This document shows positions 37,061-60,271 of a DNA stretch of 64,000 bases, piece after piece. The stretch is from NCBI GenBank assembly GCA_003168375.1, contig PMSI01000003.1:496001-560000 (forward strand), read 5' to 3'. This DNA comes from Vulcanimicrobiota bacterium. Lineage in GTDB: Bacteria > Vulcanimicrobiota > Vulcanimicrobiia > Vulcanimicrobiales > Vulcanimicrobiaceae. Numbering within the stretch: position 1 is the stretch's first letter; each line of letters begins with the position of its first letter. Position numbers and translations under genes: made by a program. The notes under the pieces were generated by a model, which saw only the letters and a list, made by a program, of their open reading frames with translations, searched no databases and was not told the DNA's origin.

Positions 37061-37735
37061 TTGCCGATCATCACTTCAACGATGCAGCTCTTCGACACGA
37101 TTTTCGGACGTCGCGAGCAGCGCTGGTTCGAAAACGGCGCGGCTGGCGGTCGCCATGGGAAGTTCAACGGTCACGCGATCAGCAACGGGCGCAAGATCCC
37201 GGTGCTCGGTACGACCGTGTGGCGCGAAGGCGTCGCCTTCGTCTCGCCTCATGCGCTGCCCGAAACCGAGATGCAGTTCTTCTTCTCCCTGCGCGGGCGC
37301 GCGATCCCGAGCCGAATCCACGTCGAGCAGAGCGAGGCGATGCAGGCCCCGGAACGGGTCGTGCACCGCTATTTTTGCGGCTTCACCGCGATCGCGGCCG
37401 ACGACTGGGACGCGGTCGTGCGCTACGTCGAGAACAAAGCCGAGCCGCAAAAGATCCAGCTGCCGCACAAGGCCGACGACGAGTTCCGCTCGCTTCCGAG
37501 TGCGATTCAGGGCGCGATCGTCGAACAGCTCGTGCGCGCCAAGCGGCTGGAAAAGCCCGCGCCCGGCACGGTTCCGCTGATCCGGATGGTCGCCGGAAGC
37601 GTACGCGACCACGGCCACGGTCAGACCACCCAGGACGTGCTGATCCACAGCCGCGTCAGCGTCGGCGACCAGATGTGCGCGTACGACACGCGCTTCCGCG
37701 TCTTCGCCAGCCAGCGCATCGAACTGATCGCGTAA
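37061..37735 (+). CDS. PilZ-like domain protein
   Basis: Up to 224 residues; the start may be TTG 37061 or ATG 37082, the latter giving MQLFDTIFGRREQRW. The central part has PilZ-type strand order (GVAFVSPHALPETEMQFFFSL; VHRYFCGFTAIAADDWDAVV), but the RxxxR and D/NxSxxG residues that bind cyclic di-GMP are not clear. With a diguanylate cyclase nearby a c-di-GMP role is possible, not shown. Confidence 0.6.
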   Translation: MPIITSTMQLFDTIFGRREQRWFENGAAGGRHGKFNGHAISNGRKIPVLGTTVWREGVAFVSPHALPETEMQFFFSLRGRAIPSRIHVEQSEAMQAPERVVHRYFCGFTAIAADDWDAVVRYVENKAEPQKIQLPHKADDEFRSLPSAIQGAIVEQLVRAKRLEKPAPGTVPLIRMVAGSVRDHGHGQTTQDVLIHSRVSVGDQMCAYDTRFRVFASQRIELIA

Positions 37736-37798
37736 GCCCGCGCCGGCGGTACGGGCATACCACTAGCGGGGTGCCGGTCTGCGTGCGATACTGGACGC

Positions 37799-38248
37799 AT
37801 GCGGTTCGTGCGGGCGGCGATCGTCGGGGTGCTTGCGCTGGGGCCGTTGGCGGCGTGCGGCGGCAGCAGCACGCAGGACACGACGCTGCTGTCCTTCGGG
37901 TGCCCGCTGGTCATCCCGGACGAGCAGATGCTCTATCCCGTGCCGGGCTCGACCGCGATCCCGGATGGCGTGAACTCGATCGTCATCGCCGGTCCGGTCG
38001 CGTTCCTCACGCTGCAGCCGACGACCGGAACGGCGATCGTGACCACGACGCCGACCGCCGTCCCGAACCCGATCCCGTCACCCCACTCCACGCCTCGCAC
38101 CAGCCCGACGGGCGCGTTCGCGGTACCGGCGCTAGCAGCCGGGACGACTTACACGGTCACCGCTCAGGCGCCCAGCGCGGGCCCGCAATCACCCGGCAAC
38201 TGTCCGCCGCCTCCGCCGCAGCTGCTCGGGTCGTTTACGACCCAGTAG
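37799..38248 (+). CDS. Small lipoprotein
   Basis: 149 residues with signal peptide and lipobox (GVLALGPLAACGG, Cys about 20). The mature part has an Ig-like strand pattern interrupted by a short Pro/Thr-rich stretch (PNPIPSPHSTPRTSP) and ends in a Pro-rich segment. No recognised family. A hairpin follows 15 bp after the stop. It is the last high-GC gene before the AT-richer island. Confidence 0.7.
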   Translation: MRFVRAAIVGVLALGPLAACGGSSTQDTTLLSFGCPLVIPDEQMLYPVPGSTAIPDGVNSIVIAGPVAFLTLQPTTGTAIVTTTPTAVPNPIPSPHSTPRTSPTGAFAVPALAAGTTYTVTAQAPSAGPQSPGNCPPPPPQLLGSFTTQ

Positions 38249-38263
38249 CTGCCCGTCGTTGAA

Positions 38264-38291
38264 GAGAGGCGCCGATTGCTCGACGCCTCTC
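38264..38291. terminator. Terminator-like hairpin
   Basis: GAGAGGCG and CGCCTCTC separated by 12 bases, just after the lipoprotein gene. Moderate stem, no T tract. Confidence 0.45.
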
Positions 38292-38338
38292 GCTCCGTAG
38301 CTCTTGGAGAAACGCGGGGGCGAAGGGTCGAGCGATTA

Positions 38339-38639
38339 TCAGCCGACCCGCCACACGTCAACATAACGTCGGATATCAGCGAGATCACCGGATGTCTCCC
38401 GTCAGCATGCGGCCGAGCGGGGGCGCGCCGCCGAAATCGGTATTCGGCCGACGAATCCAGTCGTCCGCGAGCGCAGAATTGGCTAGGATCGCGTGGAGCC
38501 GACCGTAGACGCCGAGGATGTAAGAAATGCGCTCCATCTGATCGCGGGTCAACTCCGCCCTTCCCGCGGCGCTCTTCCAGCGGGAGCTAGGTAGGCGACG
38601 GTACCCGGTACCAAGGGAGTCGCCCCGGAAGGAGCGCAT
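38339..38639 (-). pseudogene. Frameshifted MbcA/ParS/Xre-type antitoxin
   Basis: The minus strand encodes LTRDQMERISYILGVYGRLH, then DDWIRRPNTDFGGAPPLGRM, which is the C-terminal toxin-binding domain of this antitoxin family. The frame hits a stop at LTGDIR, but a shift of frame restores GDLADIRRYVDVWRVG before a stop at 38339, the expected family ending. The N-terminal helix-turn-helix part is not intact and no RES-type toxin gene is adjacent. Non-functional remnant of a toxin-antitoxin locus at the island border. Confidence 0.7.
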
Positions 38640-38750
38640 TGCGACTCGAGCAGCATGTGCAGCCTGCCGCGTAGGGCATCGCCGCGCCCTCTGTACGCTA
38701 GTGGCCGCAATCGACGCGCCGCGTCAAAATTGGCACCCGCTCTGGCTGAA

Positions 38751-41700
38751 CTACGGACTAACGACAATGAAGCCGTCTTTCGTCGTGAACACTAATCTAC
38801 GCTGAGGTACTACCGGTAACCCGTAACGGCTAGAGGCTTCAGCGTTCGTCATACTTGTCGTATATACGCAGCTGGAAAAAATTCCAAATGTGAGCGCGTC
38901 AGGAAAGGAGAGCAGGTACGCTCTTGAAGCACCCTTCTCGTGCAGCGTAATCGTGATTCCGCTCGTGAGCGTCGTAAGCGCCGGCGGAGCCTCACCGGAA
39001 CGAAAGACGCCCAGCACCTCATCGAGCAGAGGCTTCGTCGACGCAGGACAATCATCGCGGACCGCGAGAAGATCGGCGGGCCGCTTTAACGGCGATTCCG
39101 TCGAACGCTTGACCACCACGCCTTGATGAAAGACGACATAGAATCCAAAGCGCGGCATGAAGTCGTATTCAAGAGCATGAGGCGGAAGGCTGGTATCGAC
39201 GAAAGCGCCACGCTCCTGCGCAGTCGTGACCTCGCCGGCGGCAGCAATCGGTACGCACGAGATACCGAGCCCGAAGAGCGTTGGCAATTGTAGCTCCACG
39301 GCAAAAGACGATGCTGTCCGACGATAGAGAAGGCGAACTCCGTCTAATTTATATTTTGAAAGCTCAAATGTTTCTGGGTACGCGCCAGTCGATGTTCGAA
39401 CGGCCTCAATCTCCGACACTGCGTGACTGACCGCATCGACGATCGCCTGTGCGTCGCGGATGTTTTCAGGCTTACAGTTCGGATCCGCTCGGTCCAGCTC
39501 GAATGGCTTGGTCGGAGGCACTTGCGGCAGGGGGCCAAAACTGACGCTGACTTGCTGAGCCGCGGTGTCGATGTCTGCAGCGGATAAGGTCGAATTTTTG
39601 CGGCGCAGGCCGGTTCGCATGGTATACGTTATTCCTACAGAACGCCGCGCCAACGGCTGTGCCAGCGTAGGCAACGTTCCGCCTCCTGCGAGGACCAACG
39701 GAACCGCAAATCGAGGAGAGGCGAATCGGTCGCTGTAGACCCCGATTAGATTCGTGGAAGTCAGGGTCAGCGAGCCGAACTTGCCCGTGTATGTCGCCCC
39801 GAGCGCGACTGTAGCATACGGCGGCAGATTGTTGGGGTTGTTCGCTCCGACGTATTGGATAAGACCCAGCAGCTCGAGAGGCGACCGTGGCGCCTTCAAA
39901 TCGCCAACGATGCCGGCGCGGAATCGGGCCACATTGGGAAGCTGTCGCCCCGGAATCGTAACGGACGAAGGCGAATTGAATCGCTGATCCGTTGAAACGA
40001 CGCGCGCGTCGGCAAAGCGAACGTAGCCCCCGACGGAAAGGCTGGAGCCTAACTGCTGAGAAAATCCGAGACGAGCGGTCTCATAGACCTGGGTGATACC
40101 GCCGATCGTCGTCGTGAAATACACGTCACTTGGAGAGAGCGATGTCGGAGAGCCACACGCGGCCGGCGTTGCGAAGAACTGCGAAATGGAAGAGAGGTAC
40201 GATTGCGACAAGCCAAGATCGGCCCCGTTCAAAATCGTTGCAACGCTCGTCCCGCGCTGTATTTGCCGCCCGATATTAAACGACACGCTTCCTTGGCGTG
40301 AGCGTTGGGTCCAAGATGCGCTCATGTCCGACACGCTGCTTTGCGTCGCCGCAGAGCCGATCGTTTGTCCGAAGACTGCATGCGCCTGGCAATCGTACAC
40401 GAGTGACGCTGGATCCATCAGGAAGCCGCCATTGATGGGCGCGGCGCCGCCGTTCTGCAGCCGCGCTTTTAGAACGATCGTGTCCCTGGACGTCGGCGTG
40501 ATCAGGGCGGATAGCTCGAGTCCCAGCGGCTTGTCCACGAAGTTCCGCTCGTAAAGCAACGAGGCCGAGAGCCGTGCCAGATTTCGCAGCTGAATCTCGT
40601 GGGACAGCGCTCCATCTATGATTGAACGACTAGCCGTTACACCAGCCGAGAGACCCCCGAACAGGTTTTGGTGGAACCGTGTTTGCCTAGCTGAGAATCG
40701 GAAGCTGCTGGTCGAACTGAGACCGTTGAGGCGAAATGAGCCGGCGAGGGAGTCGCTGTCGCTAGTCCCGCTATTTTCTGCTGGGTCGGGCACACCATTC
40801 GCAAAGCGCTGTGAAAGATTGACATCAAAGCGCGAACGCGCCCTGGCCCCCGAGACCGACATGTTGAACACGTCGCCGGCGAGCTGGTACCTCAAAATTG
40901 CAGCGTCCGTAATAAGACTGTCATGGTTACCGGGACCGAACCCACAGGGCAACGGGCCACTGATGCGCTCACAGATCTCGTCGCCGGATGTAGAGCTTGA
41001 AAGAACCGTGGCGGTTAGGGACTGCCGAGACGAAAGAGGAGCTCGCAGTTTAAGAAGATCTCCATGCGCAACCGTGCCGCTGCGATGAGGGTAGTCGAAC
41101 CCACTGCCATCGAGAAAGGTCTGGCCATTCAGCGGTCCGTCCGCGCCGGCGCTCGCATGGCTTGCAACGATGCCGATCTGGCCTATCGAACCGCGTATCC
41201 ATGATCTCACGACGGATTGCCCGTGCGAACCATAGGAAAGCGTAGTCGATGTCTGCGGCGCGACAGTGGGTTCGAGCGTTGTGAGATCGAGCGTGCCGCC
41301 CAGAGCCGTTGCAGAAGACCCTGAGAGACTTGCACCGCCGAAGAGATCGACGTTGAGCCCTCTGAGATCTGTCGGCAATCCCACGGCGCCGATTTGCACG
41401 CCGTCGATCGCGACGCTCGTTTGCGTTGGATCGTGACCGTCGACGGAAAGCAGGCCGCCTTTGGCGCCGAACTCGCCGCCGCCCAACGCCCCAAGCAGGG
41501 AGCCTCCGTTTAACCGCTCGAGCACAGACCCGCTGCTGATACCGTCCGTTTGAAGGCTCGCGCGCGTACTCGCCTTTACACTGCCGATGGCTGTCAGCGC
41601 CGCCAACGGAGAGAGAACGACCTCGATGACCGTTTGGCGGTCGCTTGCAATATCGAGAACGTCGGAGGACTGCGGGTGATATCCGTTGCGGCGGGCGCGT

Positions 41701-41930
41701 ACGGTATACTTGCCTTCCGGAACGTTTGAGAAGAGGGCGTGTCCCTGCTGATCAGTATATCCGACAAGGGACTCGTCGCCGGAAAGCACGACCCGGGCCA
41801 GCGGCACTGGTTGTTTTGTTATCGCGTCGACGATATGAACATCAACCGAAACGGAAGCTCCCTCTGCGGGCAATGACCATGTGAGAAAGGCACCCCAGAA
41901 AGCACACAGTATTATGGCGACTCGTATCAT
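38751..41930 (-). CDS. Outer-membrane beta-barrel protein with carboxypeptidase-regulatory-like domain and extra C-terminal domain
   Basis: 1059 residues. Signal peptide 1-24, then a carboxypeptidase-regulatory-like domain at about 27-105 (VDAITKQPVPLARVVLSGDE; YTDQQGHALFSNVPEGKYTV), as in SusC/TonB-receptor-like proteins. A plug-like region at about 110-230 contains LLSVDGHDPTQTSVAIDGVQ. The tract from about 230 to 775 has alternating beta-strand character typical of a 22-strand barrel. Residues 775-1059 form an additional domain with five or so cysteines and no family I know. I see no clear TonB box. It is AT-richer than the flanking genome and is the last gene of the sigma-factor cluster. 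Confidence 0.8.
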   Translation of the reverse strand: MIRVAIILCAFWGAFLTWSLPAEGASVSVDVHIVDAITKQPVPLARVVLSGDESLVGYTDQQGHALFSNVPEGKYTVRARRNGYHPQSSDVLDIASDRQTVIEVVLSPLAALTAIGSVKASTRASLQTDGISSGSVLERLNGGSLLGALGGGEFGAKGGLLSVDGHDPTQTSVAIDGVQIGAVGLPTDLRGLNVDLFGGASLSGSSATALGGTLDLTTLEPTVAPQTSTTLSYGSHGQSVVRSWIRGSIGQIGIVASHASAGADGPLNGQTFLDGSGFDYPHRSGTVAHGDLLKLRAPLSSRQSLTATVLSSSTSGDEICERISGPLPCGFGPGNHDSLITDAAILRYQLAGDVFNMSVSGARARSRFDVNLSQRFANGVPDPAENSGTSDSDSLAGSFRLNGLSSTSSFRFSARQTRFHQNLFGGLSAGVTASRSIIDGALSHEIQLRNLARLSASLLYERNFVDKPLGLELSALITPTSRDTIVLKARLQNGGAAPINGGFLMDPASLVYDCQAHAVFGQTIGSAATQSSVSDMSASWTQRSRQGSVSFNIGRQIQRGTSVATILNGADLGLSQSYLSSISQFFATPAACGSPTSLSPSDVYFTTTIGGITQVYETARLGFSQQLGSSLSVGGYVRFADARVVSTDQRFNSPSSVTIPGRQLPNVARFRAGIVGDLKAPRSPLELLGLIQYVGANNPNNLPPYATVALGATYTGKFGSLTLTSTNLIGVYSDRFASPRFAVPLVLAGGGTLPTLAQPLARRSVGITYTMRTGLRRKNSTLSAADIDTAAQQVSVSFGPLPQVPPTKPFELDRADPNCKPENIRDAQAIVDAVSHAVSEIEAVRTSTGAYPETFELSKYKLDGVRLLYRRTASSFAVELQLPTLFGLGISCVPIAAAGEVTTAQERGAFVDTSLPPHALEYDFMPRFGFYVVFHQGVVVKRSTESPLKRPADLLAVRDDCPASTKPLLDEVLGVFRSGEAPPALTTLTSGITITLHEKGASRAYLLSFPDALTFGIFSSCVYTTSMTNAEASSRYGLPVVPQRRLVFTTKDGFIVVSP

Positions 41931-41957
41931 TCTCGGTTCTCATTTTTTCGAAACCTT

Positions 41958-42428
41958 TTAGGGCTTTTTCCCTAACAGGTGGACGGTCCGAGGATCCCCG
42001 TAAAAGCCGAGCGTTGGGGTGAAGAGAAATACACCCTCGGCCGTATCTGGGCCCGGTACCCAGAGGCCTGTATGACGCGCTTGGTCCGCGTTTCCGAAAT
42101 GTAAGTCAACGCACGATGCAAGCATCGGGAGGGACACCCCGGCTTGCTTCAGATTGAATGCGACGTATCGGTGACCGCCATAGTCGATTGATTTGAAAAC
42201 GGCATCGTCGGACTGTATGCGTAGGCGTTGTAGGAGGCCCAGAACCGCGGAGCGGTTCTCGCACGTATCGTGAATGCTTATCGCCGCCTCGGTTGTGGGC
42301 ACCGTGGCGGGAAACTCCACAAACCTCAACCCGTTGGCTGTGGCCACGCTAGCGACACTGCAGACCGCCAGCACGAACGCGACGAAGGCCGACATAATCT
42401 TTAACTTCATGACTGACTTCTTTCCCAT
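41958..42428 (-). CDS. Small exported protein of unknown function
   Basis: 156 residues from ATG 42428, preceded by GGGGAAG. Signal peptide (LKIMSAFVAFVLAVCSVASV, cleavage near ATA-NG). The mature part has two cysteines (HDTCENRS; LASCVDLHF) and a closing GLWVPGPDTAEGVFLF segment. No family recognised. It lies between the secreted peptide and the outer-membrane protein, 27 bp from the latter, so it is probably co-expressed with it. Confidence 0.7.
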   Translation of the reverse strand: MGKKSVMKLKIMSAFVAFVLAVCSVASVATANGLRFVEFPATVPTTEAAISIHDTCENRSAVLGLLQRLRIQSDDAVFKSIDYGGHRYVAFNLKQAGVSLPMLASCVDLHFGNADQARHTGLWVPGPDTAEGVFLFTPTLGFYGDPRTVHLLGKKP

Positions 42429-42479
42429 CTCATCTTCCCCGATTGAGTAGTGACAACCCAAATTTGCTCCCGAAAAGTG

Positions 42480-42513
42480 AGCGGCGGGGACTGCCGAGGC
42501 AGTTCCCGCCGCT
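42480..42513 (-). terminator. Strong hairpin terminator/attenuator after the secreted-peptide gene
   Basis: Minus strand AGCGGCGGGAACTGC, loop CTCG, GCAGTCCCCGCCGCT, followed by CACTTTTC: a 15-bp stem with one wobble and a short T run. It lies between the peptide gene and the rest of the cluster, so it would limit read-through and make the peptide mRNA more abundant than the downstream genes. Confidence 0.8.
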
Positions 42514-42527
42514 GTTTCAACGGTCGA

Positions 42528-42725
42528 CTAGCTGCAGACGCAGATCCAGATGATCTGTCCCGAGTCGCTGGTGAATTGAGCACAATTGAGAGTTGACCCC
42601 TCCGGGCAAACAGGGAAGGCAGCTTCAGCAACAGCCGTCTGGGAGAGGTTGAGACCGGGACCTGCGAGGAGGCTGAACGACAGGGCAGCAGCAGCGAGAG
42701 CAGTGCCGAAGATTTTCTTGTACAC
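42528..42725 (-). CDS. Secreted cysteine-rich small peptide
   Basis: 65 residues from GTG 42725. Signal peptide (KKIFGTALAAAALSFSLLAG to AVAEA) and a mature part of about 29 residues beginning FPVCPEGSTLNC and ending IIWICVCS, with cysteine spacing C-x7-C-x13-C-x-C. AAGGATGG lies about nine bases before the start. Position between an anti-sigma gene and a large outer-membrane protein, and the terminator directly after it, suggest an abundant exported factor: signal, bacteriocin-like peptide or structural component. No family recognised. Confidence 0.7.
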   Translation of the reverse strand: MYKKIFGTALAAAALSFSLLAGPGLNLSQTAVAEAAFPVCPEGSTLNCAQFTSDSGQIIWICVCS

Positions 42726-42882
42726 CCTAGACCATCCTTAAAGAAAGCCAATAGATTGGTTTGCTTCACCGCTAGGCGAGCGAGGCCCGTCATTGTCGTA
42801 AGCTCCTGCAGCGCCTTCTAATTATTTCTTGTCACCTTTCCTCATCGCGGGTATCGCCCGGTTGCTTTCCCTCGTGCCGGCC

Positions 42883-43539
42883 CTACTTCTTGGCGGGAAC
42901 GACACGAAAAGAAAACGGAATCGACGCAATCGTCACGCGCGTCGTACCGAATGAAAGTACGGAAACCGCTCCCTTGATGTGCTGATATGAGATCGTCGTC
43001 TTAGCGTGCTGCCCGCGAATATCCGGTGTTCCAAGCACGTCATCCAGACGTTCGTCACGTGGCGCAGATGCGGCGCTGGCCAGGCGCTGGGTGATCTTCG
43101 TCCAGCCACGATCAGTGCGATACAGCGATTCGACAACGGGATCGGCGTGCGAGTTGGAGACCAGGATGCGTTCGAGGTGCCACTGAGCATGATCGGGCCT
43201 ATATATGGGAAACGGCAATTGCCCTTGGGCTTCGTCGATGGTCTTTGCCGGCATCATCAGTACAAGACGACCCTTGCCGATTTCAAGACGAGGCGCTGAT
43301 TCAACCGGAGTCAGCATGGCCTGTATTGCCGCGAGCACGCCGCTGTGGGGCATGGCGACCGCGCCGATACCAATGACCACAGCCGAGAGCACGATACCAC
43401 TAATGCGGTGCGTCGCGCGCCTGGATTTCATCAAAAGCGCGCCGGCGCGGACTGCGCCTAACGGTGCGGCAGGAACAGGCATCTGGTTCAAGGCGTCTTC
43501 GAAGGCGCGTCGTTCGGGGTGTTGTGCGTGGTCATGCAC
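42883..43539 (-). CDS. Membrane anti-sigma factor
   Basis: 218 residues from GTG 43539, which overlaps the TAG of the sigma gene (TAGTG). A cytoplasmic N-terminal part of about 50 residues, one transmembrane helix (ISGIVLSAVVIGIGAVAM), then an extracytoplasmic domain resembling DUF4367 (RLVLMMPAKTIDEAQGQLPF; ISYQHIKGAVSVLSF). Position and topology fit an anti-sigma factor for the coupled ECF sigma. No HxxxCxxC zinc motif is present. Confidence 0.75.
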   Translation of the reverse strand: MHDHAQHPERRAFEDALNQMPVPAAPLGAVRAGALLMKSRRATHRISGIVLSAVVIGIGAVAMPHSGVLAAIQAMLTPVESAPRLEIGKGRLVLMMPAKTIDEAQGQLPFPIYRPDHAQWHLERILVSNSHADPVVESLYRTDRGWTKITQRLASAASAPRDERLDDVLGTPDIRGQHAKTTISYQHIKGAVSVLSFGTTRVTIASIPFSFRVVPAKK

Positions 43540-44054
43540 TATGTCCGGTCCTCCAATTGCGGGCGTAACATTGTTCGCGCGGCTGCGAGTCGGTAGCGCA
43601 CTGTCGCAGCCGGAATTTTGAGGCGCTTGCCAATTTCGGCGCTCGAAAACCCGGCGTAGTAGTGCAAGACGAGCGGCAATCTGGTGTCGTCGCTCAAGCG
43701 GGCTATTGCGTGGGCGAGGTCGAGGCAAGCAGATGGCTCCGGAGCGATGAGCGGAAGATCGTCGGGAAGATCGATCTCGCGATGCGCTCGCCGCGCCGCT
43801 TGTCGCTTATGAGTCAGCGCCAAGTTCGAGACCAAAACGCGGAACCAAGGAGCAATCGCATTTGGATTCCGCAATTGAGTCCGCTGCTGAAGCGCGCGCA
43901 TGCAACTGTCCTGCGCCACATCCTGCGCCGCGTCTTCGTCACGAAGAATGAGTCTCGCAATACGGTATGCGGTGGGCCAGAGCGTGAGTATGGCCTGGTC
44001 GACGTCCGCGGTCACAGTCGAAAAGCCGTTTTGGATCACGGAAGCGTCTGTCAT
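43539..44054 (-). CDS. ECF-type RNA polymerase sigma factor
   Basis: 171 residues. Region 2 (WPTAYRIARLILRDEDAAQD, then VAQDSCMRALQQ) and region 4 (LPLVLHYYAGFSSAEIGKRL, then KIPAATVRYRLAAARTML) are complete. Likely regulates the cluster after release from the coupled anti-sigma factor. A GAGGG ribosome site precedes ATG 44054. GC and codon use are lower-GC than the flanking genome. Confidence 0.92.
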   Translation of the reverse strand: MTDASVIQNGFSTVTADVDQAILTLWPTAYRIARLILRDEDAAQDVAQDSCMRALQQRTQLRNPNAIAPWFRVLVSNLALTHKRQAARRAHREIDLPDDLPLIAPEPSACLDLAHAIARLSDDTRLPLVLHYYAGFSSAEIGKRLKIPAATVRYRLAAARTMLRPQLEDRT

Positions 44055-44389
44055 TTATACCCTCGATAACCTAGACGCTTTAAGCCGTGCATCTGTTGGC
44101 AAAAAGGCGATTATTTTCTGCCACGCGTCGGAGCGCCTAGCGCCCGCTTCCTACCGTGCAAGGCCAAGTTGATCTCGGCCTTCGCCTTTGGCGTCCGACG
44201 CGGCGCGCAGCTTCGTCATGAAGAGGTGGTGGCAACGCCGTTCAGCCATTTGGCGTCCAGTAGGTCGCTAACACCGTTCATGCGGTAGCGAACGCCGTTC
44301 AGCTGGGGTGTCGTACTACTGTCGGGGCCTGTCGCCTCCTTAGATCTTCTTTTTCAACGGCCTGGGCGCGCGAGGCGTTTGCCGCGCCG
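44055..44389. other. Intergenic region upstream of the sigma gene with three short direct repeats
   Basis: No gene seen. It should hold the promoter of the sigma operon, but no convincing -35/-10 pair is visible. The motif AAC(G/A)CCGTTCA occurs three times, at 44235, 44271 and 44291, and may be a protein-binding array or decayed repeat DNA. Confidence 0.4.
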
Positions 44390-44662
44390 TTGTTTCAGGA
44401 CTCAAACGGAGAGCGCGTCATCCCGCTTCCGTATCTCGTTTTGATGAAGCTCGACTCCGCGCGTGTGATCGACCAGGCCGACCTCGCTCGGATTCTCGGT
44501 CGGCTCTCGGCCGAGCACGTGGAAGATGTGATCCGCACGGTTCAACACCACTATCACGACCCGAGCACCGCGGACGATCTGCGGCAGTATCACGAAATCG
44601 GCAAGTGGGAGTACGAAACCGAGGCAACGTCGCAGCCGGACTCAACGAAGGATCCACGCTAG
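44351..44662 (+). pseudogene. C-terminal remnant of a nucleotidyltransferase-like protein
   Basis: The frame reads AWAREAFAAPLFQDSNGERV, IPLPYLVLMKLDSARVIDQA and DLARILGRLS. This matches the C-terminal part of small nucleotidyltransferase-fold proteins often found in toxin-antitoxin-like pairs, in which PLEYLVLMKL is followed by an acidic helix. The N-terminal nucleotidyltransferase domain is absent: the frame stops making sense before about 44350. Formally TTG 44390 could start a 90-residue protein. I judge it a truncated gene. Confidence 0.45.
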
Positions 44663-44896
44663 AGCCGGCGGTTCTTGAGCGCAAGTTGCCTGCGCCATGC
44701 GTGCCGCCGTGCTGCCGCGCAACTAGATACCCGTAGTGCGAAGCGCAATGTGGACGCCTGCGGCAGCACGCTTCAACCGCAATGCCTCCTACAGGTAGGC
44801 TGTAGTCATGCGGCCGAAGCCTGCTTTGCCCGGGCGCCGATGCCGACCAGCGCGATCCTGGACGAGGCTCCCGCGGTATCGATGGGTACCGTCAGC

Positions 44897-45217
44897 ACGA
44901 TCGCTGGCCCGGGCGCGATCAAGTGGACGCGGCTCTCCTGTCGCTCGTTCAACGCGAACGCTGTTCGCCTTCAACTTCATGCGCTGGCCTACAATCTCGG
45001 GAACTTCCTCCGCACGTTCGCGACTCCCGATGTGATTGCGGATTGCTCGCTCACGAGTCTGCGCGAGAAGCTGATCAAGATCGGTGCCAAGGTCGTCAGC
45101 CACGGTCGCTACGTCACGTTCCAGATGGCGGAGCTCGCGCTCCCACGGCAGTTATTCGCGGCAATCATGCAGAGAATTGCCGCCTTGCGATCGCCCCCGA
45201 TGGCAACGGCAACATGA
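44897..45217 (+). mobile_element. IS1380-family transposase remnant (C-terminal end)
   Basis: The frame from about 44897 encodes WTRLSCRSFNANAVRLQLHA, LAYNLGNFLRTFA and SLTSLREKLIKIGAKVVSHG, ending in YVTFQMAELALPRQLF. These are the characteristic last hundred residues of IS1380-type DDE transposases. The rest of the transposase and both terminal inverted repeats are missing; the 70 residues upstream in the same frame are unrelated. A dead insertion sequence marking past rearrangement. Confidence 0.8.
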
Positions 45218-45336
45218 GCAGCCCGGCGACTGTGCGCGCCGGGAAAACGGCGGAAGAGGTCGCCTCACCTCGTGCCGAACCGACGGCCCGGCTTGCCGAG
45301 GCCGCCGAAAACTGCCGGAATCATCCGGCTTCGACT

Positions 45337-45350
45337 CGAAAAGGAGGGTC
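45337..45350 (+). promoter_or_regulatory. Strong Shine-Dalgarno deciding the OmpA-lipoprotein start
   Basis: AAAAGGAGGGTC directly before ATG 45351. It fixes the start although the frame is open another 267 bases upstream across the transposase remnant. Confidence 0.8.
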
Positions 45351-47840
45351 ATGTCGGGAATCCCGGCTCATGACAATTGGTTTGGGCCGGCCGATTTACT
45401 CTGCTTGGGACTCGCGCTTGTGCTGCTGTCGAGCGGTTGCAGCAAACAGGCTGCGACCGTTCAACCGGCGTCGACGCCGTCGGCCGAGTCCACCGCGACC
45501 AGTCCTCCGGAGTCGCCCTCGCCGGCAGCGGCGAACGTGAACGTGACGCCCGCACCGACGGCGACGCCGACGGCTGTGCCGCTCTCGTTGCAGACGCCGC
45601 TCCCGATGCCGACGCCGTTCCCCTCATCAAGCGGGGTTGTAAACTTGCTGAGTTGGAGCCAAGGTGCGGTCGTCCGCGCTTGGCCGCCGAATGCGGTCGA
45701 CCTCTATCCCGCGAGGCTCTTGACCGGCGATGGGTGGAAGCCGAAGAGCGGCGCGCCACCGCCCTACGAGTTCGTCTTCGAACTTCCGCGGCAAGCGATG
45801 CTCGAGCGGTTTGCCCTTCGGATCGCGGTCGTCGTAAGCGCGTCACCCGCCCCGCTCGGCAGCGCGTCACCCGCCCCGCTCGGCAGCGCACGCATCGCGG
45901 TCTCGGCCGGCGGCCCTGACGGCCCGTTCAACGACGTCGGTAGCGTCGCCGTCGGCAACGATGCGCAACGCGAACAAACGCTGGCGCCGGCTGCACCGGT
46001 TGGCGCGCGGTGGATCAGGCTGCATCTCGATGCGCCGTCGAACGCCGCTGTGACGATCGCAGAAGTAGCCGCCTACGGAAACCTCGCGCCGGCCGCGCTC
46101 CAGGCCCGTGACTTCGCCGGGGCATTCTATCGCGAGGGGTTTATCGACTCAGCGCATTCGCCCGCCATCGACGCCGTGCGTGGCCGCCTGAAGACGAGCG
46201 TCGACGTCAAACCGTCGATCGCGAAGGGCAGCGACTTCAATGCGTTCGGCAGCGCCGTGCACGAGCCGTACATTCAGGTCGCGAGCTGCGTCGGAAATCC
46301 GGGGGTGACGTTGCGAGGTATCGCCGGCGGCGGTCGCGTCGCTTACGTTCACGACGCCGCGCCGAACGGGTCGCTGGTGATGAACGCGGAGGGGACGAGG
46401 CTTACGGGTATCGACGGACCGTTCGCGCTTCCGTATCTTCTCTACAAGGTCGCCGGCGATCCGACGTGCCGGACGTTCGCCGACAATGGTACCGGTCGCA
46501 CGAAGGTTGCAGTGCTCACGCAGGCGGGGAACCAATTCATCGGGCCCGACGACTCCTCGCGCTATCCCGGTTACCGGTTCACGCGGGTATGGGCCCCATT
46601 GTTCGAGCCCAACGACCTCGCCGGCGTCGACTCGGTTGTCTTCGACAGCGCCTGCTGGATCGGACTCGAGCTAGCGCCGTGGCAGAGCGATGCCATCCTG
46701 ACGTTCGTCCAGGCGGGACACAAGCTGATCATTCATGACGCCGACCGTTGCAGCTCGGCGAATTACTCGTTCTTGCCCTATCCGCCGGTGCTTTCGGCCA
46801 ACGGCCGCGTCGGTCAAAAATCCGGCCGGCTGACGCTGGTCGAATCCGATACGCTCGGCGCCGATGAATCGGATCCACGCCACGTACTCGACACGGCGGC
46901 GTTCCTCGCCAACCAGCTCCAACAACTTGGCGATAGCGACATCATTACCAGCACCGACCCGCATTGGTGTGGGCACCTTCTCACGACCAATGGGAAAGGC
47001 GCGAGCGGTTACGTCCAGGCCTACGCGCACTACGGCGCCGGGCTCATCATCTATGACGGTCTGGATTACGACAACGCCCCCGTGCCGCAGTTCCGCCAAG
47101 TCCTACAGTACGAGCTCGCGCAGCCGGTCGCAGGCCGGCTTCCGTGCACCCACGACGTCGGCGGCTTCGCGCTCGGTCCCGGGCGAACGCAGAAGACGTA
47201 CGTCACCGGAAGAGCGCAGCGCGCGACGGCGAGCGTAGAGGCGTTCGCGGTCGGGAATTACCGCGGGACGCTGCAGCTCGAGTCGCAGGGACCGTGGGCG
47301 AGCCAACTCTCCAGGTCGACCATCGCACTCGACGCGAACGCGGCCGCGTTCACGTTCTTCACCGATGTTCCGGCGTCGGCACGCGGCAAGGGCCACGTTT
47401 TCACGGTGCGTGCAGTCGACACGAACGGTCGCCGTGCCGAGGCGCAGATCGAGTTCGTCCCCGGGAAGGTCCCCGCGATCGAGCAACAACTGGCGACGCT
47501 GGGCCGCGTCGAGCTGCACAACATCCTCTTCAATACGGCGAGCGCGCAGATTCGACCGGAATCCAACGCCGTGCTGGCCGAGATCGCCAACGTCCTGGGG
47601 CGCAACCCGGGCTGGAAGATCTCGATCGAGGGCCACACCGACAACGTCGGCGGCGCGGCGTACAACCTCGGCCTCTCACGGCGACGCGCGGCCTCGGTCA
47701 AGAGCGCTTTGGTTCGAGACTTCCACATCGACGCGCGCCGGCTCGCGACGGCCGGCTATGGCTTGACGCGGCCCATAGCCTCGAACGAAACCGCGCAGGG
47801 CCGTCAGCAGAACCGGCGCGTCGAATTGGTGCGGCACTGA
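45351..47840 (+). CDS. Large OmpA-domain lipoprotein
   Basis: 829 residues. Signal peptide with lipobox (ALVLLSSGCSKQ, Cys about 30), a Thr/Pro/Ser linker to about residue 90, a discoidin-like sandwich region (FELPRQAMLERFALRIAVVV; GARWIRLHLDAPSNAAVTIA), then a long central domain with a ThuA/Rossmann-like feel (KVAVLTQAGNQF; GHKLIIHDADRC) and a C-terminal OmpA peptidoglycan-binding domain: LHNILFNTASAQIRPESNAV, ISIEGHTDNVGG, NRRVELV. Links outer membrane to cell wall. A perfect 24-bp tandem duplication lies inside. Confidence 0.85.
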   Translation: MSGIPAHDNWFGPADLLCLGLALVLLSSGCSKQAATVQPASTPSAESTATSPPESPSPAAANVNVTPAPTATPTAVPLSLQTPLPMPTPFPSSSGVVNLLSWSQGAVVRAWPPNAVDLYPARLLTGDGWKPKSGAPPPYEFVFELPRQAMLERFALRIAVVVSASPAPLGSASPAPLGSARIAVSAGGPDGPFNDVGSVAVGNDAQREQTLAPAAPVGARWIRLHLDAPSNAAVTIAEVAAYGNLAPAALQARDFAGAFYREGFIDSAHSPAIDAVRGRLKTSVDVKPSIAKGSDFNAFGSAVHEPYIQVASCVGNPGVTLRGIAGGGRVAYVHDAAPNGSLVMNAEGTRLTGIDGPFALPYLLYKVAGDPTCRTFADNGTGRTKVAVLTQAGNQFIGPDDSSRYPGYRFTRVWAPLFEPNDLAGVDSVVFDSACWIGLELAPWQSDAILTFVQAGHKLIIHDADRCSSANYSFLPYPPVLSANGRVGQKSGRLTLVESDTLGADESDPRHVLDTAAFLANQLQQLGDSDIITSTDPHWCGHLLTTNGKGASGYVQAYAHYGAGLIIYDGLDYDNAPVPQFRQVLQYELAQPVAGRLPCTHDVGGFALGPGRTQKTYVTGRAQRATASVEAFAVGNYRGTLQLESQGPWASQLSRSTIALDANAAAFTFFTDVPASARGKGHVFTVRAVDTNGRRAEAQIEFVPGKVPAIEQQLATLGRVELHNILFNTASAQIRPESNAVLAEIANVLGRNPGWKISIEGHTDNVGGAAYNLGLSRRRAASVKSALVRDFHIDARRLATAGYGLTRPIASNETAQGRQQNRRVELVRH
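45837..45884 (+). repeat. Perfect 24-bp tandem duplication
   Basis: Two identical 24-bp units (AGCGCGTCACCCGCCCCGCT+CGGC) inside the OmpA-lipoprotein gene, encoding SASPAPLG twice in frame. Recent slippage; length variation between strains is expected. Confidence 0.85.
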
Positions 47841-47920
47841 TGGGGTCAGACCTCGAGTGATCGGCAACAAAACGCGACGTGGACCCCTGCTCGCCGGTCC
47901 GATATGGTAGGGTAGCGTAG

Positions 47921-50659
47921 ATGTCATGGATCGCCCGATTCGTAACGCTGGCGCTCGTCGCCGTCATGGCGGACGCGACGGTCGCCACCATGCGCGGTGC
48001 GCCGGCTGCTCTTGCGGCCGTTGCCAGTGGCACGGCGCTCGGGGTCGTCGCGTTCGGACTGTTCTGGCGACGCCCCTGGATCGCCGCTTCGTTCGGCGTC
48101 CTCCTGCTCGCAGCAGCCTTCGCATTCGGTGCGCGCGGCGCTGCCGGTACCGGTCCCGCGTTCACGGGCCTCAACCCCGCAGACTCGGCGGCGCTCGTGT
48201 TCGCGGGGCTGATTCTCGCCGGTGCCGTTGCGGCGTGCCTTGCGCTGCACAACGCGGGCCTGCGAATCCTCGTCGCACTCCTTGCGGCATACGCCCTCAT
48301 CCCGACGGCGGCAGCCGTACAGCATGGCGGCCTTGCAGCAGCATTTGGGCCGGGGCCGCTGGCCTGGACCCGCGGGCCCTACGTTGCGGCCGAAGTGTTG
48401 TTGCCGCTTGCGGCCGTCACTTCATTGCTGTTCGGCGTCATTCAACTCGCCCGTAAGCGCGGGGCGAGAGGTGTCGCTACACTGGTTCTCGCCGTCGCGC
48501 TGATCGCGGGCAGCTACTTGGGAGCGTTCGCCGCGGGCCTCGCCGGCTTGCCGACGCTTGTCGCGTTCGCGCACGGGCAATCGTCGGGCGCCGGCGCTGG
48601 CGGGCAAACGGCAGCGGCAGACGCAGGCGCTGCCGAAAGCGGCCCGCTCTTCGTTCCGAAAGGCAGCGGTGACGTTCCGGTCGAGGTCAGCGCGGCATTT
48701 GCGAACATCCCGAAGGATCCGCAGCACGCGCTCGGTGCCGTCGCTGCCCTTGGAGACGACCTCTATCCGGGCGCGCTCGGCGGATCTGCCGGAGCGCTGC
48801 GCAGCGGAAGTGCCAACAGCGTCGACAAGGCGCTACTGCTGCGCGACGTCTTGCGAGTCGTGGCCCCGAATATCGCGACGGTCTTTGCGCAGTGCAGCCT
48901 GCCGACAGCCGAATCCGACGCGCTGATCGCGCAAGCCCGCGCGGGCAAAGCGCATCCGAAGATCCTCATGCAACAGGCCGGCGCCGCTGCGAATAGCGTG
49001 AAGGACCCGGCTACGCGCGCGCGGCTGCAACACTGGGCAGAAGCGTGGAAAACGATCATCGGGCAGGCGCAGAGCGAAAGCCAAAAACTCGCCGCCTCGT
49101 TGCAGACGGCGGGGCTCGTGCTGCCTGCGGGGCTGCCGGCGCCGGACGCTTTGCGGGCGCTCGCGGCGCAGCACGTCTGGGTCCGAGCGCAAGTGGGCGG
49201 GAACTGGGTCGATCTCGATCCGACGATCGAGCCCGGCACGCCCGGAAAAACGCGCTGTGCGCCGGAAAGCCAAAGCGCAACGCTCGCCGACAACCTCTAC
49301 GACGTGCTCGGCGTGCGCGTCGCCGTCGAAGACACGCGTAGCGGCTCGCCGCGACGAACGATCGTCCTCGATCGCACGATGCGCACCGTCGACATTGGCG
49401 ATCGCGACGTTTCCTTCATGTTTGCCGAACCAACCGGAATGGACGCCGGCGCGGTGGCGGCAGCGTCTCTGCCGGCCGGCGCGCTAACGTTTACGCCGCT
49501 CTTGCGCGTCGGCGATGAGAGGATCACGGGCGCGCCGATCGTGCTTCCCTCGCCGGTGAGCAGCAGCATCGGCAAAGCCATCAGCGGGCGCGTCGGATCC
49601 GTATTGAGCGCGTTAGGTACCGCAGCTCCGACGCCGAGTCCGGTTGCCACGCCAACCCTGCCGACGGTAACGGGTCTTTGGATGGAGCTTAGCGTCGCCT
49701 CACCAGCCGGCTTGACGACGCACGTGGAGAGTCCGATTTTCGACCGCATCGGCTACGTCGCGCGCGCTGCGCATGCCGTTCCGACGGCTCTTCCGGTGCA
49801 GCCCGACGCGGGCGACTACCGCTCCATGCAAACGGTGTGGAACATCGCGGTCTCGGCGGGACGCGCGGTCAGTGGAGGCGGGCCCGCGAACGTACCTTCC
49901 GGCAGCACGGCGCCTGCGATCAGCAGCGCGCTTTCGCGATTGAACGGGGCGTATTATGCCTTGCGGCGCGCGATCATGGACGACGCGCGAGGCACGAGCG
50001 TGGACGTCGCCGCCGCAAAACCAGGCATCAGCGTGATCGCGATGGCAAACGACGGAAGTCTCATCAGCGACATCGCGAGCGACGACGCGATTCCGCTCAC
50101 AACCGACGAAGCGCGTCCGATGTGGGCCGCGTCCGCCGTTCTGGCCGAGCGCGAATTGCTCAACGGAGACGTCCCCGTGAGCGGCGTCGGCGCGGCGAAC
50201 GACGCGCTCGGTGCGTTCGACGTCGCGACGACGCTCCGGACGCCCATGGTTGCGCTTCGTCCGGGTGGCGCGGTTCAAGCATCGGCCGCGATTCCCGACG
50301 AAGCTCGAGCGCGGATGTCGGCCTACCTTGCACGGGGTGCCTCGCTGCTGGAACCGGTTCCCGAGGTTGCGCAAGCCGGCGGGCCGCCCTATGCGTTCTG
50401 GATCGTCGATCCGGCAAGCGGCACGCTCCGCGACGAAAACGCGTTCGGGCGCCATGCGGACGCGGTGGAGGATCCGGTACTCAACGAGGAAGTCGCGATA
50501 AAACCCGTTCCAAGATGGCGGATAATTGCGTGTAGAATTGCTGCAGGGGTGATGATCGCCGTAACCCAAGACAGCAGCGCTGCCGAAGGGAAGACGATTA
50601 CGGATGCAATTGAAGCGGTGAAAAAAGCTGAAGAGGAAGAGGGCGGATGCGGCGGTTGA
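47921..50659 (+). CDS. Polytopic membrane protein with degenerate transglutaminase-like domain
   Basis: 912 residues. Seven or so hydrophobic helices in the first 220 residues, then a soluble part. NSVDKALLLRDVLR followed some 110 residues later by HVWVRAQVGGNWVDLDPT matches the transglutaminase-like core, with the His and Asp present. At the place of the catalytic Cys there is Ser (GSANSVDKALLL), so peptidase or transglutaminase chemistry is doubtful. A long Ala/Gly/Ser-rich region, another short hydrophobic segment (IIACRIAAGVMIAVT) and a EEEEGGCGG tail follow. Unknown role, downstream of and probably linked to the OmpA lipoprotein. Confidence 0.7.
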   Translation: MSWIARFVTLALVAVMADATVATMRGAPAALAAVASGTALGVVAFGLFWRRPWIAASFGVLLLAAAFAFGARGAAGTGPAFTGLNPADSAALVFAGLILAGAVAACLALHNAGLRILVALLAAYALIPTAAAVQHGGLAAAFGPGPLAWTRGPYVAAEVLLPLAAVTSLLFGVIQLARKRGARGVATLVLAVALIAGSYLGAFAAGLAGLPTLVAFAHGQSSGAGAGGQTAAADAGAAESGPLFVPKGSGDVPVEVSAAFANIPKDPQHALGAVAALGDDLYPGALGGSAGALRSGSANSVDKALLLRDVLRVVAPNIATVFAQCSLPTAESDALIAQARAGKAHPKILMQQAGAAANSVKDPATRARLQHWAEAWKTIIGQAQSESQKLAASLQTAGLVLPAGLPAPDALRALAAQHVWVRAQVGGNWVDLDPTIEPGTPGKTRCAPESQSATLADNLYDVLGVRVAVEDTRSGSPRRTIVLDRTMRTVDIGDRDVSFMFAEPTGMDAGAVAAASLPAGALTFTPLLRVGDERITGAPIVLPSPVSSSIGKAISGRVGSVLSALGTAAPTPSPVATPTLPTVTGLWMELSVASPAGLTTHVESPIFDRIGYVARAAHAVPTALPVQPDAGDYRSMQTVWNIAVSAGRAVSGGGPANVPSGSTAPAISSALSRLNGAYYALRRAIMDDARGTSVDVAAAKPGISVIAMANDGSLISDIASDDAIPLTTDEARPMWAASAVLAERELLNGDVPVSGVGAANDALGAFDVATTLRTPMVALRPGGAVQASAAIPDEARARMSAYLARGASLLEPVPEVAQAGGPPYAFWIVDPASGTLRDENAFGRHADAVEDPVLNEEVAIKPVPRWRIIACRIAAGVMIAVTQDSSAAEGKTITDAIEAVKKAEEEEGGCGG

Positions 50660-50921
50660 CGTACGAGCCGACGCGCGACGCAGAGACTCACTCGGCTTTT
50701 ACGCGTTGAAGGCATCGCGATAGCGCCGAACAGTGGTGCCCATCTCGCGCGAGCGGTGATGACCTTACGGCGACGGCTCTTCAAGTAAGCCATAAGGTCC
50801 TCGAGCATGCTGTCTTGGCCGTTGCAGCCTCGCAGCTTGGCTCCCGGAGTTCGACTCTCGAACTACGACCCCGCGCTGATTACCGATCTCTGCACAGTTC
50901 GCGCATCGATCGGCGGCACTA

Positions 50922-52193
<1,272 letters not shown>

Positions 52194-56260: not shown

Positions 56261-58210
56261 TCAGAAGTGCTTTGCGAACCAGTCGACCCAGCGGCGGTTG
56301 AGGTCCTCGACGTGCAGCGGATCGCTCGGGAAGTGGCCGTTGACGGGGTAGACCAGCAGCTCCACCGGCGTTCCGGTCGCGCGGACGGCGTGGTAGAACT
56401 CGTACGAGAGCGGGGTCGGGACGCGCTGGTCGCCGGCGTCGGTGACGATCAGCGTCGGCGTCTTCACCCGGTCGGCGTAGCTGAGCGGTGATTCGTCGAG
56501 CGCGCGCTGCATCGCGGCGGGATCGGCGTACGGATCGCCGCGCAGGAGCGCCGGCGCGTACTCGTCGACGTCGCTCATCGACGTGACCCCGAGGAGCGAG
56601 TTGACGGCGGCACCGGAGAGCGCGGCGCGCCAACGGGTGTCGTGCGTGATCAGCCACGACGTCATCATCCCGCCGGCCGACCAGCCGGAGACGCCGATGC
56701 GGCCGCTGTCGACGATCCCTTCGCGCTCGAGCACGCCGATGGCATCGATGATGTCGCGTCCGGCGACCGACATCGGATGGCCGAGCGAGGTCGCGATCGC
56801 CTTCGCACCGTGGTTGTCGCTGCCGCGGTAGTTCGGCTCGAGCACGAGCCAGCCGCGCGCCGCCATCAAGCCTGCGAGCGCGCTGAACGTCGCGCGCGTC
56901 GCGCCGGTCGGACCGCCGTGGATCACGAGTACCAGCGGGTACTTCTTGCCCTTCGTGAAGCCGGGCGGTTCGGTGACGACCGCGTCCAGCGGCGTTTCGT
57001 CGGGTCCGTGCCACGCGATCGTCCGCTTCGTGCCGATACCGCGCGACGCGAGCCAGCCGTTCGTCGAGGTCAGCCGTTCGGGCGCGGACACACCGGTGCG
57101 CAGCAGATAGATCTCGGACGGGTCGCGCGCGGTCGAACCGCTGAACGCGAGCGTTCCGTCGCGTGCGCCGGACGGCGCGCCGGCGCTCACCTCGCCGGTC
57201 GGCAGCGTGGCCGGCGATCCGTCGCGTCCGAGTTTGAAGAGCCGTGACAGGGTCCCGTCGACGGCGCTCGTGACGATCGAGCCATCGGGCAAGAAGTCGG
57301 CGCTGCCGGGATTGCGATCGAACCGCGCGCTCAAGTCGACCGGATGCGTTCCGTCGACGTTCGCCAGGATCACGTCGTTCTGCACGTTCGCCACCGCGTT
57401 CGGCCGCAGGTAGACCAGCGTCTTTCCGGCATGGTCGAACGTCGCGCCCGACGCGCCTGTGGCGCCGAACATCGTGACCTTTCCGGTCGCCACGTCGACG
57501 ATCGCGGGCGTCGTTCGAAAGAACGTGTCGAACGTGCCGTCGGGCGCGCGGGTGAACGCGATCGCCTTGCCATCGGCGCGGTACGAGAGGTCGCCACCGG
57601 CGACGCTCCACGTCCCGGAGGTGAGCCGGCGCGCCTTCCCGCCGCCGGCGGGGATCAGCCACACGTGCGAGGGGACGGCCGCCGCGCGCGAGGTCCAGGG
57701 TTGCTTCGTCACCTCGAACGCGTCGTCGTGCGCGTCGATCGCCTTCTTGTTGGGCGCCTCGTCCTCGGTCACGTACGCGATCTCGCGCCCATCCGGACGC
57801 CACGCGAACCCGCCGATGCCGCGCTCCGCGTCGGTGACGCGCCGCGCTTCGCCGCCGTCGACGGGGAGGATCCACACTTGCGGGCTCTTCTTCTCGCCGC
57901 CCGGGCTGAGGAACGCGATGCGGTCGCCGTTCGACGACCAGGCCGGGCTCTGCACGCTCTGGCGGTCCGGCGTCAGCACGCGCTTCGCGTGCGTCCGAAC
58001 GTCGATCAGCACCAGCTGAGAGACGTTCTTGTTCTCTTTGAAATCCGGATGGCGCTGGATCGCGAGGACGTGCCGCGCGTCCGGCGCGATCGACACCGTG
58101 CCGTAGCTCACGAGGCGGCGCAGATCGCTCAGCTCGAGCGGGCGCGGCGCCGCGCCGAGCAGCAGCACGGCGCTCGCGGCGCCGGCGCACGATAGGATCG
58201 CACGTCGCAT
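56261..58210 (-). CDS. S9 prolyl-oligopeptidase-family serine peptidase, type A copy 1
   Basis: 649 residues. Signal peptide (SCAGAASAVLLLGAAPRP), beta-propeller with WD40/TolB-like repeats to about residue 400 (SPAWSSNGDRIAFLSPGG), then alpha/beta-hydrolase domain. Catalytic triad Ser511 (GVSGWSAGGM), Asp594 (DAGDQRVP) and His626 (PVNGHFPSD). Exported peptidase cleaving short peptides. ATG overlaps the previous gene's stop (ATGA). Closely resembles the gene at 60272. Confidence 0.93.
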   Translation of the reverse strand: MRRAILSCAGAASAVLLLGAAPRPLELSDLRRLVSYGTVSIAPDARHVLAIQRHPDFKENKNVSQLVLIDVRTHAKRVLTPDRQSVQSPAWSSNGDRIAFLSPGGEKKSPQVWILPVDGGEARRVTDAERGIGGFAWRPDGREIAYVTEDEAPNKKAIDAHDDAFEVTKQPWTSRAAAVPSHVWLIPAGGGKARRLTSGTWSVAGGDLSYRADGKAIAFTRAPDGTFDTFFRTTPAIVDVATGKVTMFGATGASGATFDHAGKTLVYLRPNAVANVQNDVILANVDGTHPVDLSARFDRNPGSADFLPDGSIVTSAVDGTLSRLFKLGRDGSPATLPTGEVSAGAPSGARDGTLAFSGSTARDPSEIYLLRTGVSAPERLTSTNGWLASRGIGTKRTIAWHGPDETPLDAVVTEPPGFTKGKKYPLVLVIHGGPTGATRATFSALAGLMAARGWLVLEPNYRGSDNHGAKAIATSLGHPMSVAGRDIIDAIGVLEREGIVDSGRIGVSGWSAGGMMTSWLITHDTRWRAALSGAAVNSLLGVTSMSDVDEYAPALLRGDPYADPAAMQRALDESPLSYADRVKTPTLIVTDAGDQRVPTPLSYEFYHAVRATGTPVELLVYPVNGHFPSDPLHVEDLNRRWVDWFAKHF

Positions 58211-60270: not shown

Positions 60271-60271
60271 C

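Follow-up and report, generated by a model that had tools for sequence, protein, structure and literature searches.

In the genome of a Vulcanimicrobiota bacterium, we identified a group of genes that places a small, secreted, cysteine-rich peptide beside a TonB-dependent outer-membrane barrel. The genes lie in a 64,000-nucleotide stretch of contig PMSI01000003.1 (the window), which is part of a 4.43 Mb genome (G000; 97% complete). Five open reading frames, all on the minus strand, occupy positions 38751-44054 (the island): an extracytoplasmic function (ECF) sigma factor, a putative anti-sigma factor, the peptide, an exported protein, and the barrel (Table 1). In soil Eremiobacterota, Cys-rich secreted peptides are found repeatedly beside their own TonB-type barrels, usually with a free copy of the barrel's C-terminal domain (CTD). 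As the core of the system, we tentatively propose three genes for peptide transport, in which the peptide is the cargo of the barrel and is probably exported, with the sigma/anti-sigma pair as one of several switches. Literature searches found no description of a module of peptide, free domain, and barrel.

The peptide, the free domain, and the barrel

Eight barrel loci have an adjoining gene for a small secreted Cys-rich peptide: the window, L039, L093, L095, L096, L108, L113, and L120. The order peptide, free domain, barrel is found at five of them (the window, L039, L093, L108, and L113), which represent four genomes and three genera. These include every locus where a barrel adjoins an intact free-domain gene (5/5), and in each the peptide gene is 5-117 bp upstream of the free-domain gene. 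L115 is a sixth case but degraded: a fragment of the free domain remains, and no peptide is visible. Two of the seven peptide loci outside the window are from the window's own genome: L039 (contig C4) is a second copy, in which the peptide and the free domain accompany a frameshifted barrel, and L096 (contig C3) has a redoxin gene and two very similar six-Cys peptide genes of 50-51 amino acids in tandem (L096:12621-12773 and 12943-13098). The remaining loci are from genomes G099 (L093), G097 (L095; divergent, opposite strand), G027 (L108), G071 (L113), and G055 (L120). Gene calls in the related loci are our own. Most of the relatives are known from metagenome-assembled genomes with short contigs, and a gene that is missing from one of these is only soft evidence of absence.

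The preliminary description of this DNA had guessed that the peptide and the exported protein are partners of the barrel. The recurrence bears this out, with eight loci that have a peptide and five that also have the free domain. It had named ligands and cargo as other options; as judged by profile alignment, the exported protein is not an independent cargo but a free homolog of the barrel's own C-terminal domain. In hhalign comparisons, the free domain matched the first of the barrel's two C-terminal domains (CTD1) with E = 1.4e-14 and the second (CTD2) with E = 4.9e-10, while control segments of the same barrels gave 0.16 or worse; a separate run gave 1.7e-16 to both. A profile built from two sequences of the exported protein picks up barrels throughout the class, at their C-terminal ends (best E = 1.2e-7), and in AlphaFold 2 (AF2) models the predicted order of secondary structures agrees with both CTDs. 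Beyond the class, nothing in this phylum significantly matched a profile of the free domain, and a fold search of the exported protein against the PDB gave nothing below E = 1. This reveals a clade-restricted, predicted periplasmic domain that occurs twice on the barrel and once as a free protein. No Pfam family matches it, and no solved fold does so with confidence.

The barrel is predicted to be an Oar-like TonB-dependent transporter (TBDT) with two additional C-terminal periplasmic domains. It begins with a CarboxypepD_reg extension of the Oar type (PF13620; residues 29-106), followed by a plug (about 117-216) and the barrel proper (226-774). The AF2 model, which was built on 14 sequences, shows these parts as an N-terminal beta-sandwich, a plug, and a barrel, and adds two alpha/beta domains (821-934 and 963-1058). 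With Foldseek, 233 chains matched the model at E <= 0.001, including the importers BauA, PfeA, and OprC. The AF2 model and the Foldseek matches thus point to a plug within a 22-strand barrel, where 22 is the value for the TBDT class and not an individual count of strands. The Pfam models for the plug and for TonB_dep_Rec did not match. Because the strand count of the class is even and the plug lies on that side too, the CTDs should be periplasmic. A conserved hydrophobic segment between the extension and the plug (IGSV, residues 115-118) is a TonB-box candidate. The barrel has eight invariant Cys. C-terminally extended barrels were found in 96 of the 117 genomes of the class, although some of the matches are partial and weak. 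When we scanned a single genome from each species with a five-row barrel alignment, almost all of the records returned were from Candidatus Eremiobacterota / WPS-2.

The window peptide has four Cys within its last 30 residues. The peptides' signals are Sec-like with an AxA-type site; signals and mature ends were assigned by a simple rule, not by a trained predictor. Neither the peptide nor the exported protein had a meaningful match in Pfam or NCBIfam. The peptide family surfaced only via the neighborhoods of barrel homologs: BLAST with the peptide across the order gave only noise outside G000. A profile of the five closest peptides recovers just those five in 117 genomes, and all five adjoin a free domain and a barrel. 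We checked 8 of the 12 weak matches to this profile (E = 0.01-0.1), and all were unrelated frames. The mature peptides are hypervariable and the paired barrels are variable. In a FastTree phylogeny of 69 barrels, peptide-linked barrels account for 7 of the 21 accessory, long-branched, fast-evolving barrels and none of the 48 in the core clade (Fisher P = 1e-4). Core-clade barrels usually adjoin a response regulator and a histidine kinase. The barrels of the window, L093, L108, and L113 cluster together (local support 82), but this grouping is uncertain because of the long branches.

Most of the peptide genes are followed by a strong predicted RNA hairpin, with z = -5.2 in the window, -4.2 in L039, -4.5 in L093, -6.1 in L108, -7.3 in L120, and -5.9 for the second peptide of L096. 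The hairpin is weak at L095, at L113, and after the first L096 peptide. Over all nine peptide genes, the scores fall below those of 27 control genes that have a neighbor on the same strand (P = 4e-4). The hairpins suggest that the peptide is made in excess. The layout suggests a product gene that is expressed above the level of its own transporter, perhaps by attenuation.

Table 1. Features of the island and its surroundings (window coordinates).
Feature	Position	Strand	Basis
TonB-dependent transporter (predicted), 1059 amino acids	38751..41930	-	PF13620 1.1e-10; AF2 mean confidence (pLDDT) 72.5; Foldseek to BauA 3.5e-21
Tandem CTD1 + CTD2 of the barrel, predicted periplasmic, residues 795-1059, four invariant Cys	38754..39548	-	CTD1 vs. 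CTD2, hhalign 1.6e-17
Exported free-standing CTD-type domain, 156 amino acids, two conserved Cys	41958..42428	-	hhalign to barrel CTDs; AF2 pLDDT 75
RNA hairpin, 15-48 nt past the peptide stop, 14 bp with one mismatch, then UCACUUUU	42480..42513	-	Minimum free energy -34.6, z -5.2
Secreted four-Cys peptide, 65 amino acids, GTG start, predicted mature end AFPVCPEGSTLNCAQFTSDSGQIIWICVCS	42528..42725	-	Sec-like signal, same-genome paralog, profile
Putative anti-sigma factor, 218 amino acids, one transmembrane segment	42883..43539	-	Position and topology from sequence
ECF sigma factor, 171 amino acids	43539..44054	-	Sigma70_r4_2 1.4e-11, Sigma70_r2 1.4e-8; TIGR02937 above cut-off
Candidate ECF autoregulatory promoter, GCCAACA-n15-GCGTC, 5' of the sigma gene	44074..44100	-	Consensus match only
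Antitoxin (Xre/MbcA/ParS C-terminal) fragment, island border	38385..38639	-	PF09722 4.5e-5, slightly under curated cut-off
IS1380 transposase C-terminal remnant, other island border	44675..45217	+	NF033539 3.2e-19, PF13701 2.4e-23
Segment missing at the matching site of G099	37744..50922	.	blastn of L209 and L204 vs. window

Some of the related loci have features of their own. The barrel of L039 is split into two overlapping frames (L039:6564-9754, or G000:C4:228572-231732), by a frameshift or an assembly error. The L093 module (L093:4266-8372; G099:C194) lies between murG- and murC-like genes, within a cell-wall gene cluster. L103:5635-6210 (G078:C1) encodes a free CTD-type exported protein with neither barrel nor peptide nearby; a thymidine-kinase-like gene is close to it, and another is beside the L094 barrel. 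A second free-domain gene, on the 4-kb contig of L104, also has no barrel or peptide in the available sequence.

Regulators and arrival of the island

The preliminary description had made the sigma/anti-sigma pair part of the system, had likened the barrel to the receptors of cell-surface signaling, and had suggested that the anti-sigma factor may sense export or the state of the envelope. The five same-strand genes are as described, down to the GTG start of the anti-sigma gene inside the TAG stop of the sigma gene (TAGTG), and an order of sigma, anti-sigma, peptide, and barrel does recur at L120, but the other six of the eight peptide loci lack sigma and anti-sigma genes, and barrels of the family without a peptide have assorted regulators. 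With the pair at just two of eight loci, we take it to be an exchangeable regulator and not part of the core, and we rejected it as a defining part of the system. Nor does the barrel look like a classical signaling receptor: it has no match to the STN signaling domain in Pfam at E <= 1, and CarboxypepD_reg takes the place of STN at its N-terminus.

Family searches (Pfam and NCBIfam) gave no match for the putative anti-sigma factor, which is named for its position and its single apparent transmembrane segment. Upstream of the related sigma gene of L097 (genome G075; 38% identity), GCTAACA-n15-GCGTC agrees with the window's promoter candidate at 11 of 12 positions and with identical spacing. The common GC[CT]AACA-n15-GCGTC is plausibly an autoregulated ECF promoter. 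The sequence that precedes the peptide gene had no ECF-like motif in common with the sigma promoter, just weak 11/12 matches like those expected by chance.

L120, which is from another genus, encodes in order a sigma factor, an anti-sigma factor fused to a TonB C-terminal domain, a peptide, an exported protein from outside the free-domain family, a weakly thioredoxin-like protein, and the barrel. Its anti-sigma factor (L120:3224-4243) has a weak zinc-finger match as well as the TonB domain (PF03544, E = 1.1e-12), and might as a single protein tie sigma control to TonB coupling. Among family barrels without a peptide, those of L097 and L112 are beside sigma/anti-sigma genes, and those of L040, L111, and L131 directly follow gene pairs that we labeled as BlaI/BlaR1-like by reading their sequences. 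Most of the other family barrels follow a response regulator and histidine kinase pair.

The island had been described as AT-richer than its flanks and bordered by debris, and both points held up; its suggested horizontal arrival is supported. Its GC content is 58.3%, the lowest of any 5.3-kb stretch in the window (mean 68.0%), and GC at third codon positions is 0.635-0.675 for its five genes, as compared to 0.866 +/- 0.064 for 42 other genes in the window. The antitoxin pseudogene and the IS1380 remnant at its borders are real by their family matches (PF09722 and NF033539). In G099, a relative from the same genus (about 95% DNA identity here), the junction is empty: the match to the window stops at 37743 and restarts at 50923, and the gene for a 217-amino-acid protein to the left of the island (37082-37735) directly abuts clpX (50922-52193). 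Since G099 has clpX at the site of the segment, this composite, about 13.2 kb long, probably arrived by insertion or rearrangement at clpX. The IS1380 remnant borders its AT-rich part. This supports horizontal or insertion-sequence-linked arrival; one relative was compared, and loss in G099 is the alternative. We rejected AT-richness as a general mark of the module, as the modules of L039, L095, L097, and L113 are not AT-rich relative to their own flanks.

The right part of the segment (45367-50705) carries OmpA-like genes. In G099, these are on another contig, at a different chromosomal site and among unrelated genes, and are 95-96% identical; the block is a recent translocation next to clpX. 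Elsewhere in the window, 56261-63906 holds several large tandem paralogous genes, apparently for exported hydrolases, with 65-68% DNA identity in cross-matches.

Transport direction and other explanations

Our proposal starts from what sequence and computation give directly: the genes, their recurrence, the domain homology, the predicted TBDT fold, and the predicted hairpins. The peptide would be made in excess, with the hairpin separating it from the downstream genes. It would enter the periplasm by Sec and would probably be oxidized to form disulfides. The free domain and the barrel's own CTDs may hold or present it, and the barrel could then pass it to the cell surface or the medium with energy from TonB. 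The ECF sigma/anti-sigma pair would be one of several interchangeable switches. The redoxin gene of L096 fits with oxidative folding of the peptide, the TonB domain on the anti-sigma factor of L120 also speaks for the proposal, and the requirement for Oar in PopC secretion makes export possible for this barrel. A stronger version, in which small disulfide-rich peptides have a dedicated secretion system powered by TonB, with an Oar-like TBDT that exports a co-encoded hypervariable Cys peptide and a free CTD copy that assists, seems doubtful.

Several points weigh against export. Most characterized TBDTs are importers, and the CarboxypepD_reg extension is also found on importers of the SusC type. 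Nothing that we tested fixes the direction of transport. The TonB box is a candidate segment only, the AF2 models are based on shallow alignments, and PopC is a protease instead of a small peptide with a Sec signal. The peptides are too short and too divergent for significant pairwise similarity (E = 0.19 for the window peptide and its paralog), and no processing, immunity, or maturation gene is common to all of the loci.

The main rival, which we consider rather unlikely, is that the peptide exits by another route and is a ligand (a metal carrier or a self-signal) that the barrel recognizes or takes back up; the window's anti-sigma/sigma pair would then report the occupancy of the barrel. Cys-rich peptides with C-x-C can bind soft metals. 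The resemblance of the predicted fold to importers and the presence of sigma/anti-sigma genes at two of the loci agree with this idea, and free periplasmic receptor domains that bind anti-sigma factors exist in cell-surface signaling (PMC11637429), so the free domain might regulate instead. However, no nearby gene offers the peptide another way out through the outer membrane, the flanks that we read contain no metal-transport or siderophore genes, and the missing STN domain and the lack of sigma/anti-sigma genes at most peptide loci also argue against it. It is quite unlikely that the peptide and the free domain belong to the barrel as permanent subunits (a lid, plug, or folding aid) and that neither is transported. 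This would account for the tight gene order, for a free domain that copies the barrel's own domains, and for the barrel's invariant Cys, but not for hairpins that suggest an excess of peptide over barrel, tandem peptides beside a single barrel in L096, or 48 core-clade barrels with the same architecture and no detected peptide.

Hypervariable peptides paired with variable, long-branched barrels might also suggest antagonism, with bacteriocin-like toxins released via the barrel and the free domain as an immunity protein or chaperone. We think this very unlikely: no immunity or toxin family was recognized, a PADLOC scan had no match, and the free domain is absent at three of the eight loci. Finally, short open reading frames are common in GC-rich DNA, and those beside barrels could be there by chance. 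We scanned for frames with a Sec-like signal and at least four Cys in the last 34 residues, and found nine in the 322 kb within 2.5 kb of barrels and four in 670 kb elsewhere, leaving out two antisense matches inside barrels. The rate is about 5-fold higher near barrels (Fisher P = 0.007, which is descriptive, as the filter was chosen after the first cases had been seen). Given this rate, the shared hairpins, and the identical order wherever a barrel adjoins an intact free domain (five loci), coincidence is extremely improbable.

Few cases are known in which TonB-dependent barrels are linked to outward transport. A compact module of one barrel and one peptide of 30 residues would open this question to direct tests, in a phylum with almost no genetics.

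Comparison with known systems

One of the closest known systems is Oar from Myxococcus xanthus, a TBDT with an N-terminal PF13620 extension that is required for the secretion of PopC, and whose TonB box matters (PMC6434023). Both systems have the TBDT fold (predicted here), the CarboxypepD_reg extension, and proposed outward transport of a polypeptide. In contrast to PopC, the partner here is a Cys-rich peptide of 30 amino acids with a Sec signal. Also, the barrel here has two additional C-terminal periplasmic domains and a separately encoded free copy, and no linked Ton system was seen in the island.

Like FecA/FecR/FecI and FoxA/FoxR (PMC11637429), the window and L120 combine an ECF sigma factor, a membrane-bound putative anti-sigma factor, and a TonB-dependent barrel in one run of genes; this linkage is absent from the other peptide loci. 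In cell-surface signaling, a receptor domain, once released, can bind to the anti-sigma factor and so protect it (PMC11637429). Unlike those systems, which are defined by STN, our barrel lacks this domain, a peptide is encoded with it, and the regulator varies by locus (two-component, BlaI/BlaR-type, or none).

Class II-type microcins also have a gene for a small Cys-containing secreted peptide near a transport gene. However, the signal here is of the Sec type and not a double-glycine leader, the island encodes no exporter with ATP-binding cassette and membrane fusion (ABC/MFP) components, and no immunity gene was recognized. As in the SusCD and BtuBG importers, the barrel is encoded with a dedicated small exported partner, but the partners here are not lipoproteins: one is a homolog of the barrel's own CTDs, and the other is a Cys-rich mini-peptide.

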